From NCBI GenBank assembly GCA_037179385.1, contig CM074180.1, positions 28,501,455 through 28,565,454 of the forward strand: a DNA stretch of 64,000 bases, read 5' to 3'. Shown piece by piece: positions 12,561 through 61,734 of this stretch. Position 1 is the stretch's first letter; each line of letters opens with the position of its first letter. The position numbers and the translations under genes were made by a program. The notes under the pieces were generated by a model, which was not told where the DNA came from, did no database searches, and saw only the letters and a list, made by a program, of their open reading frames with translations. This DNA is from Holothuria scabra (lineage: Eukaryota; Echinodermata; Holothuroidea; Aspidochirotida; Holothuriidae).

Positions 12561-14240
12561 GATTCCTTGCCGAAGGCAGGCAAGGAATCTATGCGATGGT
12601 GATGTCGTGTGGATGTGTGTGTCTGTGTAAGTATGTGTGTATGTGACTCCTGCTTGTAAATATGATATCTCAAGAAGCGAAAGTGTGGTGAATCTCATAT
12701 TTGGCATGTGGATGTTGCATACTGAGAAAATGGTCCATATCGTTTTTGGTGTAAATCAAAGGTCATTTGAGGTCACAAGAGGTCAAAGAGCAAAAACCTT
12801 TAAAGCTGCTTGTAAACACTGTCTTTCCAAAGTGGTTACCCTGGGGCCGTAACAGTTTGCATGTGGCTGATCCACAATGAGAAGATGATCCCTATCATTT
12901 TTGGTGGAGGTCAAAGGTCATCTGGTGTCATGGAGGGTCAAAGTCTGGAAAATTTGTTTACAAGATATCTCAAGTTCGGGAGCTTGGATAGATTTCATAG
13001 TTGGTATGTGGATGCGTTATGGTGTGAGAGAAAGAAACCTATCATTTTTGGTGGAGGTCAATGGCCCTCTGGGGTCACTGGGAGTCAAAGTATCAAAACC
13101 TTGTTCACACCATATTTCAAGTGAAGATTCTTAGATAGAGTCCATACTTGGTATGTACGCTACAGTAAGTAGATGATCCCTATTGTTTTTAGTGGAGGTC
13201 AAAGGTCATTTAGGGTCCTGATAGGTCAAATGGTCAAAACCTTGTAAACACGATAGATGATCCCTATTGATTTTGGTTCAGATCAAAGAATATTTTGGGG
13301 TCATGAGAGGTCAAATGGTCAAAACCTTGTAAACACGATATCTCAAGAATAGCACATATGTCACTACGCTCTTATTTAGTGGTAGGTTGGTGATATTGAC
13401 TGAGTAGATGATCCTTATCAATTTTTGTGGAGGTCAAAGGTTATTTGGAGTCATGAGAGGTCAAATGCTAAATTCCTTAGAAATTGCTTTTACACACATT
13501 ATCTCAAGGAAGGTAAGTGTGACTTATCCACGGACTTCCTATACTTGGACAGAGCACACTGCATGGTCTATTGTCGCTACTGTATGTGTGAGAAAAAGCG
13601 CACCAAGATGGCCGTCTGCTGTGTTTTTGCCTGAAAGTTTGGACTTGCTCAAGTATATCACCATATTTTGCAAGAAAGTTGAAATATATTTAAAATATGG
13701 CTAGGTAAGGTCGAAATCCCTCCACTTATTGCAGGAATATATGATGTTTTTCCCCATTTAAGTTTAACTTTTGCTTATAATATTAGAGAGTTGTCGTCAA
13801 ATCAGATGATTTATAGGTTCACAGCGGCCATCTTGGTGCGCCTTTTTTGTGCCAGTTGGTGGCGACCAGCTATGGATAGGACGTACACATTACATGCTGT
13901 GTCCATGTATATAAGTCTGTGGACTAATCTCAAATTTGGTGTGTGGGTTTGCCATATCAAGCAGATGATCCCTTTTGTTTTTGTGGAATTGAAAAGTCAT
14001 TTGGGGTCACAAGAGGTGAAAAGGTCAAAACCTTGTAAACAAGATATCTCGGGAATGGTACATGTGACTTTGCTCTTATTTGGTGTGTGGTTTGGTTATA
14101 TTGAGTACTGTAGATGATCCCTATCGATTTTTGTGGAGATTAAAGGTCATTTGGGGTCACATGAGGTCAAATTGAAATTGCTTTTAACCATTTTATCTCA
14201 AGAAAGGTAATTACAGTAGTGTGAATACTGTATGCTAATA
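12561..14240 (+). mobile_element. Helentron/HINE-like element, copy A
   Basis: Begins with the hairpin GATTCCTTGCC-GAAGGCA-GGCAAGGAATC (12,561-12,589), then TATGCGATGGTGATGTCGTG and a TG-rich tract, then about eight units of a roughly 146-bp tandem repeat with nuclear-receptor half-sites (perfect AGGTCA-A-AGGTCA at 12,908-12,920 and 13,196-13,208). The 3' subterminal repeat and hairpin are missing, so the copy is 3'-truncated. A 395-bp MITE is nested at 13,528-13,922. The element has no coding capacity and lies in the sense orientation in MAX intron 1. Confidence 0.8.
13528..13922. mobile_element. Foldback MITE with about 100-bp TIRs
   Basis: A 395-bp element beginning CCACGGACTTCCTATACTTG and ending CATGTATATAAGTCTGTGG. 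The arms pair imperfectly over about 100 bp and include GCGCACCAAGATGGCCG on both sides. It interrupts a tandem unit of Helentron-like copy A; the flanks ACTTAT (13,522-13,527) and ACTAAT (13,923-13,928) fit a 6-bp target duplication of the host word ACTAAT with one substitution. A second copy is at 21,136. Confidence 0.85.
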
Positions 14241-15016
14241 TTTGGTTTGGGGGTACTGTAAGGTACTGCATCCTAAGGTATGAAAAAGTAGGGAGAATTG
14301 TGGGGAATATAATTCCCTTCCTGATAAATTATTCCTTTCGTTTCCTTTTTTTAGGCCTGCCTATGTCCATACTTTGATATCTGATTCCCAATGTGAGATC
14401 ATAGCTCAAATTTTGTGGTCCCATTTCTGGAAATTACATGTTACCTGCTTTCATACTTGCAACCACCAAAAATTACGAGTTTCAGAACATGTTAGTCTCT
14501 ATTCTGTCTTAAACTGAATTGTAGAAACATTCTTTGCCACTTTAATACACAGCTTGATGTCCTGCTAGCCATTTGCAGTGTAGCCAACTGTACTGTACAG
14601 TAGGTGTACTTTAAAGTAGTTTATAGACAATGACCCGACTGAACTTGTCAAAAGGAGGCATTAGTTTTCAAAAAATTAAATGACAAACAGGGGTATTAAA
14701 ATTTACTACATAAAAGAAGTAAATGATATGATGCTATCAGTGATATGAGCCTTCCTCATTCCATAGTTCCAATTTTTTTAAGAGAACATTGTTAGACAAC
14801 CTCTATTGTATTCCCAGGGTCTTTTTCACATTAGAAGCTTGCCAGGGACTTCTTAATAAGGTTAAGTAGAGATTTGATCTAAATTGGAGATAAAGTACTG
14901 TAGTTAAAGGGGCTTGTAGATCCCCAAACAAGGAAGTTTTGGGGGAACGGCTTCAGTGTACCTAAAATTTGTGACTCACTGTAAATGGGATAAAGAATAT
15001 TTTCTGTGTGCATACC

Positions 15017-24786: not shown

Positions 24787-24832
24787 GATTCCTTGCCGTA
24801 GGCCAAGGAATCTATGCGATGGTGATGTCGTG

Positions 24833-24835
24833 CGT

Positions 24836-24878
<43 letters not shown>
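24833..24878 (+). repeat. (TG)n microsatellite
   Basis: Uninterrupted or nearly uninterrupted TG dinucleotides just inside the 5' end of Helentron-like copy B. Every copy with an intact 5' end has a TG tract at this position. Confidence 0.9.
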
Positions 24879-24882
<4 letters not shown>

Positions 24883-24899
24883 ACGCTTTGCTTGTAAAC

Positions 24900-26760
24900 A
24901 CGATATCTCAAGAAGGGTAAGTGTGACTAACCTCATATTTGGTGTGTGGGTTGGTCATATTGAGTAGATGATCCTTATTGTTTTTGGTGGAGATCAAAGG
25001 TCATTTGGGGTCACAAGAGGTCAAAAGGTCAAAACCTTGTAAACACGATATCTTGAGAACGGTACATGTGACTATGGTCATATTTGGTGTGCGGGTTGGT
25101 CATATTGAGTAGATGATCCCTATCAATTTTCGTGGAGGTCAAAGGTCATTTGGGGTCACGAGAGGTCAATAGGTAAATTCCTTAGAAATTGCTTGTAAAC
25201 ATGGTATCTCAAGAAGAGTTAGTGTGACTAATCTGATATTTGGTGTGTGCATTGGCCATATTGAATAGATGATCCCTATTGTTTTTGGTGGAGATTAAAG
25301 GTCATTTGGGGTCACGAGAGGTCAAAAGGTCAAAACCATGTAAACACGATATCTCTAGAATGGTACGTGTGGTTATGCTTATATGTGGTGTGTGGGTTGG
25401 TCATATTGAGTAGATGATCCCTATTGTTTTTTGGTGGAGATCAAAGGTCATTTGGGGTCACGAGAGGTCAATAGGTCAAAACCTTCTAAACAGGATATCT
25501 CAAGAACAGTACATGTAACTATGCTCATATTTGGTATGTGGGTCGGGCATATTGAGTAGATGATCCCTATTGTTTGTGGTGGAGGTCAAAGGTCATTTGG
25601 GGTCACGAGAGGTCAAAAGATCAAAACCTCATAAACACGGTATCTCCTGAACAGTACATGTAACTATGCTCATATTTGGTATGTGGGTCGGTCATATTGA
25701 TTAGATGATCCCTATTGTTTTTGGTGGAGGTTAAAGGTCATTTGGGGTCACGAGAGGTCAAAAGGTCAAAACTTAGTAAACACGATATCTCGAGAACGGT
25801 ACATGTGACTATGCTCATATTTGGTGTGTGGGTTGGTTGTATTGAGTAGATGATTCCTATCGATTTTCATGGAGGTCAAAGGTCATTTGGGGTCACGAGA
25901 GGTCAAAAGGTCAAAACTTCGTAAACCCAATATCTCAAGAACGGTACAGGTGACTGTGCTCATATTTAGAGTGTGGATTGGTCATATTGAGTAGATGATC
26001 CCTATTGATTGTGGTGGAGGTCAAAGGTCATTTGGGGTCACGAGAGGTCAAAAGATCAAAACCTCTTAAACACGATATCGGCAAAACAGTACATGTAACT
26101 ATGCTCATATTTAGTGTGTGTGTTGGTCGTATTGAGTAGATGATCCCTATTGATTTTCATGGAGGTCAAAGGGCATTTGGGATCATGAGAGGTCAATAGG
26201 TAAATTCCTTAGAAATTGCTTGTAAACACAGTATCTCAAGACGAGTAAGTGTGACTAATGTCATATTTGGTTTGTGGGTTGGCCATATTGAGTAGATGAT
26301 CCCTATTGTTTTTGGTGGAGATCTAAGGTCATTTGGGGTCACGAGAGGTCAAAAGGTTAAAACCTCATAAACACGGTATCTCCTGAACAGTACATGTAAC
26401 TATGCTCATATTTGGTATGTGGGTCGGTCATATTGATTAGATGATCCCTATTGTTTTTGGTGGAGGTTAAAGGTCATTTGGGGTCACGAGAGGTCAAAAG
26501 GTCAAAACTTAGTAAACACGATATCTCGAGAACGGTACATGTGACTATGCTCATATTTGGTGTGTGGGTTGGTTGTATTGAGTAGATGATTCCTATCGAT
26601 TTTCATGGAGGTCAAAGGTCATTTGGGGTCACGAGAGGTCAAAAGGTCAAAACTTCGTAAACCCAATATCTCAAGAACGGTACAGGTGACTGTGCTCATA
26701 TTTAGAGTGTGGATTGGTCATATTGAGTAGATGATCCCTATTGATTTTCCCAAAGGTCAA
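24900..26760 (+). repeat. 146-bp tandem array with nuclear-receptor half-sites
   Basis: About 13 units. The landmark CATATTTGG recurs near 24,934, 25,080, 25,234, 25,380, 25,526, 25,671, 25,817, 25,963, 26,109, 26,263, 26,407, 26,553 and 26,698. The consensus unit has five direct half-sites, AGGTCA, AGGTCA, GGGTCA, AGGTCA, AGGTCA, with spacers of 1, 4, 4 and 2 bases; a perfect block is at 25,873-25,913. A segment of about 370 bp (starting near 25,630) is repeated 736 bp downstream with very few differences, so a five-unit higher-order duplication occurred recently. Confidence 0.9.
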
Positions 26761-27085
26761 AGTTCATTTGTCAGCATGTTCAAGGCCTGACAAGCTTTCC
26801 TGCACAGTCTTTCAAGAAAGGTCACTTGTAGGGTCCTGTTACTTTTCATGTAGATAGCACATAGTGAATACATGGTCCCAGAAGTTTTTGGTGGAGGTCA
26901 AATGTTATTTGGGTTCACAACGGGCAAGAGGGATCTCAATGTAGGAAGATTGGATGCCTTGCATGTGTACTTTGTGGGCACATTATGGAGCCCTGTCAAT
27001 TGAAAAACATTGCAAAGCAATGTCAATGTGAAAAAAGGCCTTACATTTCAGCGGCAAGGAATCACGAAGCCTTTCGGCTTTCTGG

Positions 27086-32339: not shown

Positions 32340-32832
32340 TGTATTTGAATATTTATTGACTCCTTAAAGGTCATTTGAGGTCAGCGGAGCCCTGTAAAAC
32401 TGCAAAACCCTCAGAAATAGCTCATCAACATGATACCTCCAGATAAGCCATTTCAGGTTACATGATGTAAAACTGCCAAAACCTTGTTTAATGTGATGAG
32501 AGGAAGAACTTTGTTTGTAGTGGAGATAAGAGGTCATGCTAGGTCACCAGAGGTCAAATGTAAACTTAGATCACCAGAGGTTTAGAACTTCACTAAACAA
32601 GATACCTTAAATGGGGAAGTGTTAAGAATTTTTTTCATGTTTGTTACGTGGGTGCAGTTCATGGTTAAGAAGAGGACCCTTATTGATTTGGAAGATCAGA
32701 AAGAACCTGGGGTCCTAAACCATCAAAAAGTAGGACTTCCCAAGAAGAGGTCAAAAGGCAAAATTTCCCAAGTTTTCCATTCCCCAAATATTCTTTTCGG
32801 CAAGGAATCACTAGGCCTTTGGGCTTTTTCGG
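32340..32832 (+). mobile_element. Helentron/HINE-like element, copy E (decayed)
   Basis: Degenerate tandem units (GGTCATTTGAGGTCAG, GAGGTCATGCTAGGTCACC) followed by a recognisable 3' end: GGCAAGGAATC at 32,799-32,809, hairpin-like GGCCTTTGGGCTTT and a mutated terminus TTCGG. The 5' end is missing. Sense orientation in MAX intron 2. Confidence 0.7.
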
Positions 32833-34956: not shown

Positions 34957-35979
34957 GATTCCTTGCCAAAGGCAGGCAAGGAATCTATGCGATGGTGATG
35001 TTGTTTGTATGTGTGTGTGTGTGAGTGTGTGTGTGTATGTGTGTTTGTGACACTCCTTTTAATCGCGATATCTTGAGATAGGAATGACCGACTTCATATT
35101 TGGTATATAGATTTGCCATGGTGAGAGGAAGAACCCTATTGCTTTTGGTGGAGGTCAAAGGTCATTTAAGGTCACCAGAGGTCAAAGACCGAAAACCTTG
35201 TAATTGCGATATCTTGAGATAAGAATGTGCGACACTTTTCAAATTTGGTATATAGATTTGCCATGTAGAGAGGAAGGATCCTATTTTTTTTAGTGCAGGT
35301 CAAAGATCATTTGAGGTCACCAGAGATCAAAGAGGGTCCGAAACCTCATAATCGCGATATCTTGAGTTAGGAATGACCGACCCTTTTCATATTTGGTATA
35401 TAGATTTGCCATGGTGAGAGGAAGAACCCTATTGCTTTTGGTGGAGGTCAAAGGTCATTTAAGGTCACCAGAGGTCAAAGACCGAAAACCTTGTATTTGC
35501 GATATCTTGAGATTAGAATGTGCGACACTTTTCAAATTTGGTATATAGATTTGCCATGTAGAGAGGAAGGATCCTATTTTTTTTAGTGCAGGTCAAAGAT
35601 CATTTGAGGTCACCAGAGATCAAAGAGGGTCCGAAACCTCATAATCGCGATATCTTGAGTTAGGAATGACCGACCCTTTCCATATTTGGTATATAGATTT
35701 GCCATGTTGAGGGGAAGAACCCTTTAGTTTTTGGTGGAGGTAAAAGGTCATTTGAGGTCACCAGAAATCAAAGACCAAAACCTTGTAATTGGGATATCTT
35801 GAGATAGGAATGACCGACACTTGTCATATTTGGTATATAGATTTGCCACATTGAGAAGAAGAACCCTATTGTTTTTGGTAGAGGTGAAAGGTCATTTGAG
35901 GTCACCATTTTCAGTGGTTTATGAGGACAACAAAGCACCCCTTTTCCGCAAGGAATCACGAAGCCTTTTGGCTTTCTGG
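34957..35979 (+). mobile_element. Helentron/HINE-like element, copy C (complete, short)
   Basis: 1,023 bp. 5' hairpin GATTCCTTGCC-AAAGGCA-GGCAAGGAATC, TATGCGATGGTGATGTTGT, TG tract, six tandem units (landmark ATTTGGTATATAG near 35,094, 35,240, 35,388, 35,533, 35,681, 35,825), 3' repeat GCAAGGAATC, hairpin AAGCC-TTTT-GGCTT and CTGG. Flanked by T runs on both sides. Units carry AGGTCA-A-AGGTCA, then TTTA, AGGTCA, CCAG, AGGTCA, that is DR1 plus two DR4. Adjacent units alternate as a two-unit (about 293 bp) higher-order repeat. Confidence 0.88.
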
Positions 35980-37084: not shown

Positions 37085-39684
37085 GGTTTCGATGAAAAGA
37101 GAAACCTATGCATTCATGATGGCGTGTGTGTGTTTGTATGTGCGTGTGTATGTATGTGTGTATGTGTTTGTGTGTATGTGTGTGTGTATTTGTGACACTT
37201 TGCTTGTTTACACGATATCTTGAGAAGGAAAGATCTGACAATTCTCAAACTTGGTACACAGGTACCCCATACTGAGAGGAAGAACCCTATATATTTTGGT
37301 TAAGGTCAAAGGTCATCTGGGGTCACAGGGGGTCAAAAACCAAAATCCTTGTTTACACAATATCTCAAGATAGGAAAGTTGCATTAATTTCAAACTTAAT
37401 ATGTTGATGTGTTATGATGTAAGGAAGAACCCTATTCAATCAATTCAATTTGAAAGTAGATATGTTGATGCGTTTTGATGTAAGGAAGGACCCTATTGGT
37501 TTTTATGGAGGTCAAAGGTTATTTGGGGTCACCTGGGGTCCAACCCCGAAATCCTTGTTTACACGATACCCCATACTGAGAGGAAGAACCCTATATATTT
37601 TGGTTGAGGTCAAAGCTCATCTGGGATCACAGGGGGTCAAAAACCAAAATCCTTGTTTACACAATATCTCAAGATAGGAAAGTTGCATTAATTTCAAACT
37701 TGATATGTTGATGTGTTATGATGTAAGGAAGAACCCTATTGGTTTTTATGGAGGTCAAAGGTTATTTGGGGTCACCTGGGGTCCAACCCCGAAATCCTTG
37801 TTTACACGATACATCATGGTAGGAGACTTGGATTAATTTCAAACTTGATATGTTGATGCGTTAGGATGTAAGAAAGAACCCTATTGATTTTGGTGGAAGT
37901 CAAAGATCATTTGGGGTCATGTGGGGTCAAACCCCGAAATCCTTGTTCACGCTATATCTCAAGGTAGGAAACTTGGATTTGATCTGACAGTTCTCAAACT
38001 TGGTACACAGATACCCCATACTGAGAGGAAGAACCCTATATATTTTGCTTGAGGTCAAAGCTCATCTGGGATCACAGGGGGTCAAAAACCGAAATCCTTG
38101 TTTACACAATATCTCAAGATAGGAAAGTTGCATTAATTTCAAACTTGATATGTTGATGCGTTATGATGTAAGAAAGAACCCTATTGATTTTGGTGGAGGT
38201 TCAAGTTCATTTGAGGTCAAGTGGGGTCAAACCCCCAAATCCTTGTTTTCACAATATCTCATGGTGGGAAACTTGGATTCATTTCAAACTTTATATGTGG
38301 ATGTGTTATGATGTGAGGAAGAACCCAATTATTTTGGTGGAGGTTCAAGGGCATTTGGGGTCACATGGGGTCAAACCCTGAAATCCTTGTTTACATGATA
38401 CATCATGGTAGGAGACTTGGATTAATTTCAAACTTGATATGTTGATGCGTTAGGATGTAAGAAAGAACCCTATTGACTTTGGTGGAAGTCAAAGATCATT
38501 TGGGGTCATGTGGGGTCAAACCCCGAAATCCTTGTTCACGCTACATCTCAAGGTAGGAAACTTGGATTTGATCTGACAGTTCTCAAACTTGGTACACAGA
38601 TACCCCATACTGAGAGGAAGAACCCTACATATTTTGGTTGAGGTCAAAGCTCATCTGGGATCACAGGGGGTCAAAAACCGAAATCCTTGTTTACACAATA
38701 TCTCAAGATAGGAAAGTTGCATTAATTTCAAACTTGATATGTTGATGCGTTATGATGTAAGAAAGAACCCTATTGATTTTGGTGGAGGTTCAAGTTCATT
38801 TGAGGTCAAGTGGGGTCAAACCCCCAAATCCTTGTTTTCACAATATCTCATGGTGGGAAACTTGGATTCATTTCAAACTTTATATGTGGATGTGTTATGA
38901 TGTGAGGAAGAACCCAATTATTTTGGTGGAGGTTCAAGGGCATTTGGGGTCACATGGGGTCAAACCCTGAAATCCTTGTTTACATGATACATCATGGTAG
39001 GAAAGTTGGATTCATTTCAACCTTGATATGTTGATGCTATATGATGTAAAGAAGAATCCTATTTATTTTGGTGGAGGTCAAGGGTCACGTGGGGTCAAAC
39101 CCCTAAATCGTTGTTTACACTGTATCTCAAGGTAGGAAACTTTGATTCATTTCAAACTTGATATGTTGATGCTTTATGATGTAAGGAAAAACCCAATCAA
39201 TTTTGGTGGAGGTCAAATATCATTTGGGGTCAGAAGGGTATAAATCCTGAGAAACTTTTTAACACAATATCTCAAGGTAGGAAGCTTGGATTGATTTCAA
39301 ACTTAATATGTTGATGGGTTATGATGTAAGGAAAAACCCTTTTGATTTTGGTGAAGGTCAAAGGTCATTTGGGGTTATAGGAGGTCAAACTCAGAAAACC
39401 TTGTTAACACTGTATCTCAAGGTAGGAAACTTGGATTCATTTCAAAATTGAAATGTTGATGCAGTATGATGTAAGCAGCTTGTTTGCAGAATATCTTAAG
39501 GCACAGTATGAAATTTGGCTTTTTGAATATAGAAATGTTTTGGTTAAAGGAAAACCAGTTACTAACAGCCTAACAGGTGGAGTCAAAGGTCACTTTGGGT
39601 CACCAGTTGTTACAAGAAATGTAGCATATCATTAAAAAGAGCATGTATGTATCATCGAAACCTCAATGCGTTTTTGCATTCTGG
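37085..39684 (+). mobile_element. Helentron/HINE-like element, copy D (second subfamily)
   Basis: 2,600 bp with the same plan as copy B but unrelated termini. 5' end GGTTTCGATGA with a GGTTTC/GAAACC hairpin, TATGCATTCATGATGGCGTG, TG tract (about 37,126-37,195), about 15 tandem units, 3' repeat TCATCGAAACC (39,652-39,662, the exact complement of the 5' 11-mer), hairpin AATGC-GTTTTT-GCATT and CTGG (39,681-39,684) before a T run. A 589-bp (four-unit) segment is duplicated (about 37,800-38,400 and 38,390-39,000), which is why two identical 65-aa frames appear 589 bp apart. Sense orientation in MAX intron 3. Confidence 0.88.
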
Positions 39685-59389: not shown

Positions 59390-60478
59390 ATTGATGTAAC
59401 TTAGATATTTGGTTTTATAACTTTACATTACAAGTGATATTTACAGTTTATAGTTAAACAAATATGATATGACAGTCGAGAAGGTGGAGAAGTTTCAGAG
59501 CAGAAAGATTCTTTCTGGCTGGGCGACTCTCTGATAAAATATGAACAAAGGAACCACTATTGACACCTGTATGGTCCCAAAGGGGTAAGGGTTACGTCCC
59601 AGTCGAATTTTGAAAACATATTTCGCAATGGAACAAAGGCAAATCAAATTAAAATGATGCTGAATGTTTGAACCTAAATATACAAAAAATTCAAAGGCAA
59701 TGGGACTCTTAGACCTCCTCCCCCAGGCCGCAATTGGTCATCGCCACAACTCAACGTGCTGGCCACGCAAGCTGGAACCGTACAACGTAACTCCCATGAA
59801 TTTTATACTATACCAATATCAATGTCAAAGTCAAGGTTACCGTGCAACGGACGATGCAGGGTAATTAATACAAAGACCTTAATCTAAGCAGGGGAATCTG
59901 TTCCCTGATCTTTTCGTTCGTCGGGACTTTTTATGAGCAGTTTGTAGCTTGTTTTCAAACCGCAATTTCAACACGTTGCCCAATTTAATACATGTAGCAA
60001 TAAGAAAGGCCACAAAGGGGCATCACCGATGAGGAGATCTCGCCCTAAAGACCAAAAAGTAGTACTCATCTAAATCTCAGCAACTTGACCTTCAGAACTA
60101 ATTGGGTCAAATTCTAAATGATACACTATTTTGATGTAAGGTTGTTTGAAAAAAAAAACAGAAGCAAAATAAACCCATCCACCAGGCCGACGAAAATCCT
60201 TCATTGCCCCTCCCCCCCTTCCAAAAAAGAGAATGAATAATTTCGCTGCGGCCCCTGATCAGAAATGGTGGACAGAAAGGTTGGTTACTAACTGGTTAAT
60301 TCGGGTTTACCGGGTGTCACCTTAAAACAGAAATGCGCCCTCTCTAGAGTCCCCAAACTATGTCTCCCTACATATATTTGACTCAACATGAATTGGGACA
60401 ACTATGATCGAAGTGTCGCGTCAAATGCATTCAATGATTCATCATTTGAATATATATATCTCTTCTTTTATTCGTCAG
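59390..60478. other. 5' flank or intron of SLCO, nothing else seen
   Basis: No repeat ends or exon recognised. The last bases form a pyrimidine-rich acceptor (CTCTTCTTTTATTCGTCAG, ending 60,478). Confidence 0.4.
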
Positions 60479-60493
60479 TATCATCCGGACAAG

Positions 60494-61112
60494 ATGTCTA
60501 AATCAAATAATACCATTTACAAACCCGTTGGCTCACAGGAAGGTTATGAAGTCACAACATCCCCTCGCAAGGGCATTTTTCATAGCCCAGTATTCTTCGC
60601 AGCTATATCAATGGTCGAGGCAGCTCTCGGCGTGGCAGCAATGGCCTATTTTGGAGCATGCATAAGTACCATCGAAAAACGCTTTCAACTTAAAAGTTCT
60701 CAATCAGGGACTATTGTAGCCGTGAATGACGTCATCGGCCTTATTATCCTCTTATTTGTGACTCACTACGGTAAATCGAGACACAGACCGAGAATAATTG
60801 GCTTTCTCAATATTACCGTGGCTCTAGGTTCCCTTTGTCACATAATTCCTCATTTAGTATACAGTATACCGACCGCTCTCGGAAAAGATATCGAAAAATC
60901 GGAAGAGAACTACGTCCTAGGGTACTGCCAGTCTTCGAATGCAACAAAAGGATGCTCACAGAGCGAAGCAGAAGAATCTGGCTCATTGCTCAATCAAGCG
61001 GTTTGGTTATACATTGGACAAGCTCTCTCTAGTTGCTACAGCTGTATATATCCGCTGTTTCTTACTTACTTGGATGACGGAGTGAATAAGAAAACACTCG
61101 CTGTCTACATGG
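60494..61112 (+). CDS. SLCO/OATP transporter, N-terminal exon (TM1-TM4)
   Basis: Partial gene for an organic anion transporting polypeptide (SLCO, major facilitator fold), a plasma-membrane transporter of amphipathic organic anions. 206 codons plus one base. Approximate membrane segments: TM1 residues 31-55 (SPVFFAAISMVEAALGVAAM), TM2 70-91, TM3 99-125 and TM4 170-193. Family marks are STIEKRFQLKSSQSG after TM1, HYGKSRHRPRIIGF between TM2 and TM3, and TYLDDGV at the end of TM4. The TM3-TM4 loop has two Cys and an N-glycosylation site (NAT, residue 149). Start chosen at MSKSNN (60,494, A at -3); an in-frame ATG at 60,404 lies upstream of a good acceptor and is probably intronic. Donor ATGG|GTAAGT at 61,113, phase 1. 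OATPs are about 650-700 aa, so roughly 450 residues lie beyond the window. Subfamily not assigned. Confidence 0.95.
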
Positions 61113-61734
61113 GTAAGTAATATGATGTCATTCTGCTGAGATCATACGCAACCAGTACGTCAATTAGGCTAAGACATCTACAACCTGAATCAATTTGTAT
61201 CAAGTTTTGGCAACAAATAATTGTATCTTTTGAACAACGACTGTACAGAATGAGTGGCTGTTTTTTTCTTCTTCTTCTTCTTCTTCTTCTTCTTCTTCTT
61301 CTTCTTCTTCTTCTTTTTCTTTCATCATTTTTTTTTTCTTTTTTGATGACATCAACAATACGAAGAAAGTTTTACAACTACATAAAAAGTTTTAGACCAT
61401 CATGAATAGACGTCACTCTTAAAGTTAAAAACTGTTCTTTTTTAGAGGACGTGTTGCCCTGTTAGATTTTACAAAGTTTTATAGCCTAAGTGTGTTTCCT
61501 TTGAGCACCACTGAGCATTTCGATTTTTATGGAACTTTGACGTCAAATTCATTCGGCTCATTACGCAATAATAAATAAGTCACAAAACAGCAAATAAAAC
61601 AAAATCGACAAATAACGTAGCATACACTGGGGATTTCTTCTAATTTGGCAATTCTCAGAAGTACTGTTGCGTGAAAGAAGAAAACTTAAGTTTCCGTGAA
61701 AACTAACGGTAAGAAGATTCTACAGTTCTGCATG
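61113..61734 (+). other. SLCO intron with TTC microsatellite
   Basis: Intron sequence following the donor GTAAGT. A (TTC)n tract of about 15 repeats lies at 61,266-61,315. No exon recognised. Confidence 0.7.
61266..61315 (+). repeat. (TTC)n microsatellite
   Basis: About 15 perfect CTT/TTC triplets followed by a T-rich tract. Purine/pyrimidine asymmetric. Confidence 0.95.

Follow-up and report, generated by a model that had tools for sequence, protein, structure and literature searches.

Several described transposons resemble the repeats studied here. The Cg_HINE elements of Crassostrea gigas have a subTIR, an inverted repeat, a microsatellite, a 3' subTIR, a palindrome and a preference for TT, and their centre is a satellite-like tandem array with monomers of 138-181 bp, present as thousands of arrays (PMC7492417). 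DINE-1 and HINE-Mo share the terminal plan and the TT preference, and some of their copies contain tandem repeats (PMC4067079). In Caenorhabditis, Helitrons carrying heat-shock elements are likewise rolling-circle elements, and they disperse transcription-factor sites in repeated form (PMC6927752). Alu is a transposon that spreads direct repeats of AGGTCA, with sites on the order of 100,000 (PMC1785376, PMC3252374); 108,582 DR2 sites were reported (PMC1785376), and HNF4-bound Alu sequences are given as occurring at ~1.2 million locations (PMC3252374).

The DNA analysed here, referred to as the window, is a 64-kb stretch of the Holothuria scabra genome (C2:28,501,455-28,565,454). The assembly that was searched contains 1,192,178,128 bases in 31 contigs, and the published H. 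scabra assembly is described as having 31 scaffolds and 1.19 Gb, with the longest of 79.75 Mb and an N50 of 53.52 Mb (PMC11082199). Four arrays of a repeated unit (A-D) are present in the window, and all are parts of HINEs. An earlier sequence-only reading had placed the repeats inside a mobile element, which is borne out by the presence of HINE ends. The features are listed below, where S1, S2, S4 and S5 denote subfamilies of the unit.

24787..27085, plus strand: HINE element B, complete, 2,299 bp; TTTTTT then GATTCCTTGCC at the 5' end, GGCAAGGAATC at 27,053, palindrome, CTGG and TT
24787..24812, plus strand: 5' subTIR GATTCCTTGCC of element B and its inverted repeat (head hairpin), from the sequence
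24830..24882, plus strand: (TG)n microsatellite of element B
24891..26770, plus strand: central array of element B, 145-bp units of S1 type, from matches to the unit profile; it is the array of the sequence-only reading and forms the centre of the element
25873..25895, plus strand: 23-bp core AGGTCAAAGGTCATTTGGGGTCA of element B, half-sites 1-3, delimited by conservation
25896..25913, plus strand: half-sites 4 and 5 of element B with their spacers, particular to some units and non-conserved
27053..27085, plus strand: 3' end of element B with subTIR, palindrome AAGCC-TTTC-GGCTT and TCTGG
12561..14250 (end approximate), plus strand: HINE element A, 5' head and an old array of S5 type
34957..35979, plus strand: HINE element C, complete, 1,023 bp, units of S2 type; 3' subTIR matching at 10/11
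37085..39684, plus strand: HINE element D, complete, 2,600 bp, related S4 units and different ends (GGTTTCGATGA, TCATCGAAACC, palindrome AATGC-GTTTTT-GCATT)
32800..32831 (end approximate), plus strand: solo HINE 3' end, found with an 18-base query at 2 mismatches

The order in elements B and C is a T-run, GATTCCTTGCC, the inverted repeat, ATGCGATGGTGATG, (TG)n, the array, a 3' part, the subTIR, the palindrome, CTGG and TT, and element D follows the same plan with other terminal sequences. The subTIRs at the two ends match at 11/11 positions in B, 10/11 in C and 11/11 in D, and a palindrome follows the 3' subTIR in all three. In the window heads, the inverted repeat stands beside the 5' subTIR and the microsatellite ahead of the array. 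A 3' end was looked for in element A and none was found; positions 13,543-13,921 are other repeat DNA. The solo 3' end is accompanied by a core-like remnant at 32,361 (5 mismatches in 23). Elsewhere in the window, an inverted repeat at 925-1221 with 48-bp arms (96% complementary, 201 nt between them) is a possible MITE, and an open frame for an organic-anion transporter (SLCO) at 60392-61120 has five database relatives, the sole species-named one being from the crinoid Anneissia japonica.

The sequence-only reading described a 146-bp unit with a run of five half-sites. Measured periods in the window are 145-148, and one subfamily outside it has 156 (GGTCA spacing). The run AGGTCA-A-AGGTCA-TTTG-GGGTCA-CGAG-AGGTCA-AA-AGGTCA is exact at 25,873-25,913. 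The same 41 bp occur from 26,609, and they were not counted as independent because they seem to be part of an internal duplication of array B, in which the sites at 25,728 and 25,873 repeat 736 bp on at 26,464 and 26,609. The motif AGGTCANAGGTCA, allowing one mismatch, gave 29 matches in the window compared with a mean of 0.43 in 100 shuffles, and 28 of them lie on the plus strand. Eleven of the 29 are exact, and the positions given earlier as 35,446 and 39,357 are corrected to 35,445 and 39,355. The exact 23-bp core occurs at only five places in the window (25,136; 25,583; 25,873; 26,018; 26,609), every one in array B, and array C has AGGTCA as its third half-site, in line with the earlier claim. 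The proposed location in MAX introns is plausible: a MAX basic-helix exon was found at ~31,604, and the short motif list used gave no further MAX exon.

Genome-wide, the HINE head pattern with up to 2 mismatches matched 8,023 places, and the reversed pattern matched none. Forty of 100 listed heads were taken by position before sequence inspection; the 100 all lie on C1 and have no mismatches, and thus represent well-preserved elements. A unit array was present behind the head in all 40 loci, and a perfect 10-bp head hairpin in 32. The left flank ended in TT in 32 of the 34 readable cases. The right end was parsed in 8 of the 40 loci, the examined sequence of most others ending at 1.2 kb, and the right flank began with TT in 7 of 8 readable cases. 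The repeats are, with hardly any doubt, the central satellite-like arrays of HINEs, which are non-autonomous Helentron transposons. Among the 100 listed heads, five pairs lie 3.77-3.79 kb apart. The two pairs compared (L049, C1:16,514,600-16,519,100; L050, C1:36,292,500-36,296,850) are 97.5% identical over 4.3 kb, and this composite, which exceeds 4.3 kb and has its two heads 3.77 kb apart, may be taken as a sign of recent spread.

The triple site AGGTCANAGGTCANNNNRGGTCA (AGGTCA-N-AGGTCA-N4-RGGTCA) has 35,799 and 33,957 exact matches on the two strands, 69,756 in all, and its reversed control has 1 and 0; from base composition, ~98 exact DR1 would be expected genome-wide. The element thus disperses DR1-type sites in large number, as had been proposed, while at least one of the 100 listed triple-site places is a subtelomeric satellite instead. 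In 20 position-picked 10-kb regions, the triple site had no match. Strict DR1 occurred nine times in these regions, three times in a HINE (L009) and six times in a second array (L025, described below), and a looser form occurred twice (L020 and L024). Close to one C1 terminus (L001:1-3023; C1:1,155-4,177), a (TTGACY)n satellite is followed by (TAATTT)n-like repeats and then by a short (CCCTAA)n stretch.

Several other readings of the repeats were rejected. An Rfam search of the window at gathering scores, which would have picked up a described RNA family (a ribozyme satellite, for example), gave no match. DR1 is not a general feature of tandem repeats: among seven arrays with a period of at least 60 in the 20 position-picked 10-kb regions, a listing that does not contain the diverged L025 array, one holds DR1, and this is the L009 HINE. 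Viral contigs gave no exact match to the core. A coding function was rejected for the 145-bp period, a length not divisible by three. The S2 unit, at 156 bp, is divisible by three and has open frames of up to 254 aa (L037:276-1037). This frame gave 47 matches at E <=10, including six named predictions from Holothuria leucospilota with repeat pieces (20 of the 47 sequences were inspected), and we infer that these protein matches are probably translated repeat. The H. leucospilota predictions with repeat pieces include COMM domain-containing protein 3 and a lipoxygenase-like protein, and are possibly exonised or mispredicted.

Conservation along the unit was examined in two samples. The first started from 230 profile hits, of which 4 (overlap of two loci) and 38 (fewer than 100 of 144 columns) were removed. 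The 188 remaining units came from 26 arrays (20 head loci, L009, one C1 array and window arrays A-D), and subfamilies S1-S5 were assigned by visual comparison of the array consensuses. The replicate comprised 95 units in 20 arrays, with the subfamily assigned without use of the core. The core (23 columns, half-sites 1-3) ranked first of 140 windows along the unit (0.911 versus a median of 0.767), and in the five subfamily consensuses it differs at 0-1 of 23 positions, compared with 8-36 of 107-115 (7-32%) elsewhere. In the replicate, 123 of 2,182 letters were changed in the core and 1,810 of 10,420 elsewhere. The sequence-only reading had made the conservation of the DR1 stretch its own test, and this stretch is indeed the best-conserved part of the unit in both samples. 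The conserved form is AGGTCA-A-AGGTCA-TTTG-RGGTCA, and AGGTCA-A-AGGTCA is the consensus in all five subfamilies, while single units often deviate: half-site 1 is often AGATCA in S1, and half-site 2 is RGGTCA in just 2 of 14 units of S4 (array D) although the column consensus is AGGTCA.

The core could be functionless, an old shared block that is kept alike by homogenisation, by chance in a few source lineages or as an artefact of the search profile. Subfamilies are few, S4 and S5 are one array each, units in one array are non-independent, and the profile used to find the units contains the core, so that a bias toward core-keeping units is possible. On the other hand, the loci were chosen by the head and not by the repeat, units needed 100 of 144 columns and would remain detectable after loss of the core, and the replicate gave the same outcome, with core minus rest lying between -0.145 and -0.093 in a bootstrap at the level of arrays. 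We regard such a functionless block as improbable. That the source lineages have been constrained to keep the core is, in contrast, suggested with good confidence by these comparisons.

The conserved block does not coincide with the run of five half-sites. It had been proposed that all five half-sites form the most conserved part and that the DR2 and the second DR4 are kept; half-sites 1-3 hold that place instead. Half-site 4 is RGGTCA in 5 of 70 S2 units, and half-site 5 is present in 0 of 70 S2, 0 of 15 S4, 12 of 42 S3 and 56 of 137 S1 units, so that the five do not stay together across copies. Half-sites were expected to be more constrained than spacers in a DR-type response element, and this expectation failed. 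The TTTG spacer equals the half-sites in conservation, with changes of 0.032 in spacers versus 0.073 in half-sites; the replicate values were 0.044 and 0.060, a non-significant difference whose interval includes zero. Windows moved up to 9 columns to the left equal the core on consensus differences, so that the block edges are not sharply set by the half-sites. A run preceding the core, GATCCCTATTGTTTTTGGTGG, has a unit agreement of 0.850, and a second conserved run, CTTGTAAACACGATATCTCAAGAA, has 0.793 versus 0.656 for the rest.

A contiguous block of this kind, taking in TTTG and bases to its left and constrained on source lineages rather than on inserted copies, would suit a cis-element of the transposition machinery, used by a Helentron-encoded protein or in replication, with the likeness to DR1 incidental. 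We consider this somewhat unlikely. The requirement for transposition proposed in the account of DINE-1 and HINE-Mo concerns the termini (subTIRs and stem loop; PMC4067079), and DR1 reappears in L025 without the TTTG context. Strand folding was rejected as the cause of the conservation, as one unit folds more weakly than its own shuffles on both strands (z of +2.0 and +2.2), which also speaks against a role in the machinery.

A different host transcription factor, for example TCF/LEF or forkhead, could also use the core. The ranking of 6-mers places TCAAAG (0.78) and TCATTT (0.71) above AGGTCA (0.63 and 0.59), and S1 contains the AGATCA variant; AGATCAAAGG of S1 is closer to the TCF/LEF motif than AGGTCAAAGG. 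Within the second conserved run, TGTAAACA, or TGTTTACA in S4, resembles forkhead sites, and forkhead-like strings were found in 72 of 106 S1, 26 of 39 S2, 10 of 15 S3, 9 of 15 S4 and 5 of 8 S5 units. Such a factor leaves unexplained the whole 13-bp AGGTCAAAGGTCA in the L025 units, doubled in two of four, and appears quite improbable as the user of the core.

L025:679-1560 (C17:5,500,679-5,501,560) holds a second repeat family, in which a head-like hairpin is followed by (GT)n and then by two kinds of unit, four units in all. A 3' end was looked for at this locus and none was found, and L025 is a candidate HINE. Every unit ends in the exact 13-bp AGGTCAAAGGTCA, which is doubled at 1-bp spacing in one of the kinds (two of the four units), and TTTG does not accompany it. 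Outside DR1, the two kinds have no mutual likeness (z of -0.7 to 1.5, simple 2-mer shuffle) and little likeness to S1-S4 (z <=2.1, 2-mer shuffle). L025, a single locus that was found via its DR1 and whose units were cut by hand at DR1, would shift the balance back toward a receptor-type site.

Decay was compared within subfamilies. Units of one array are non-independent, and the frequency cut-off is a crude split of private from inherited variants; rare variants (<=5%) in the pooled samples affected 96 of 3,262 core letters and 508 of 15,731 others in S1 (0.0294 versus 0.0323, p 0.44), 36 of 1,601 and 153 of 6,854 in S2 (0.0225 versus 0.0223, p 0.93), and 17 of 1,012 and 110 of 4,828 in S3 (0.0168 versus 0.0228, p 0.29). 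Minority variants of all frequencies were rarer in the core than outside by a factor of 2.3 to 3.2. Since rare variants are about equally frequent in the core and outside, copies seem to decay unprotected while source lineages retain the core. We infer that inserted copies undergo near-neutral decay without protection by the host, and that sources keeping the core contribute more copies. When the cut-off was set at 10%, the first sample gave 0.0402 in the core and 0.0544 in the rest of S1 (p 0.004) and p 0.13 in S2, and the S1 value leaves room for some preservation of the core after insertion.

These comparisons bear on a stronger form of the sequence-only reading, in which the elements act as a scattered hormone-response system that the host maintains. 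It has in its favour the number of sites and the precedents of receptor sites in Alu and of Caenorhabditis Helitrons that rewired a response. Within subfamilies, however, individual copies do not clearly preserve the core better than the rest, neither the DR2 nor the second DR4 is conserved, and the strands are nearly equal in sites (35,799 versus 33,957), as undirected spread would give. A host-kept system is very improbable on this evidence.

The explanation that we favour is that a DR1-type site is retained because it serves the transposon itself. A host DR1-binding protein, with nuclear receptors of HNF4, COUP-TF or RXR type as the likeliest candidates, would occupy the repeated site and open chromatin or boost transcription at the element, where mobilisation takes place; the site would thus be retained by the transposon, perhaps as an enhancer, and sites beside host genes would be a by-product that could change regulation case by case. 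Two RGKTCA half-sites at receptor-type spacing are present in the subfamily consensuses. Receptors favour A as the DR1 spacer base, and for longer spacers no distinct base preference is described, yet spacer sequence has receptor-specific effects (PMC6555819). The conservation of TTTG counts against a receptor site, because receptor binding predicts a conserved spacer poorly, as does the frequent AGATCA variant in S1, and the half-site 2 result in S4 together with this statement on spacers slightly lowered our confidence. The protein bound at the core is quite possibly a nuclear receptor. The whole chain of HINE, source-lineage constraint and receptor-driven mobilisation is put forward tentatively. 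A broader version, in which sea cucumber rolling-circle transposons keep an exact DR1 of perhaps more than one origin (the S units and the two L025 kinds) because a DR1-binding host receptor aids mobilisation, and have seeded tens of thousands of tandem sites, is unlikely as it stands.

Transposons are often said to spread regulatory sites, and whether the host or the transposon benefits is seldom separable. The present sequences inform this question, as the core is kept between lineages and, judged by rare variants, erodes within them no differently from the rest of the unit. Should a receptor bind the core, the transposon would maintain a hormone-receptor-type enhancer for itself, and, if the mechanism holds, transposition may be coupled to the host's hormonal or metabolic state. 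Whichever reading holds, receptor-binding work on sea cucumbers would need to allow for these sites, which number in the tens of thousands.

In the open-licence PMC literature, the core was printed in no paper in any of the five forms searched, and among the titles and abstract openings listed, none linked HINEs to receptor-type sites. The account of Cg_HINE, as consulted, names no transcription-factor site in the central repeats (PMC7492417), while in H. scabra the 23-bp core is common to the repeats of elements that have different ends. The account of DINE-1 and HINE-Mo, as far as it was available, does not mention a DR1-type core (PMC4067079). The Caenorhabditis Helitrons carry HSF-1 sites with demonstrated binding and effects on genes (PMC6927752), whereas the H. 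scabra sites are putative receptor-type sites and have many more copies. Alu is a retrotransposon whose consensus DR2 arises largely from CpG deamination in the copies (PMC1785376, PMC3252374); in H. scabra, DR1 is in the subfamily consensus and tandemly repeated. Receptor sites borne by transposable elements, site-spreading Helitrons and HINEs with satellite-like arrays were thus known already, and what appears to be new here is their combination in HINE arrays with putative receptor-type sites.
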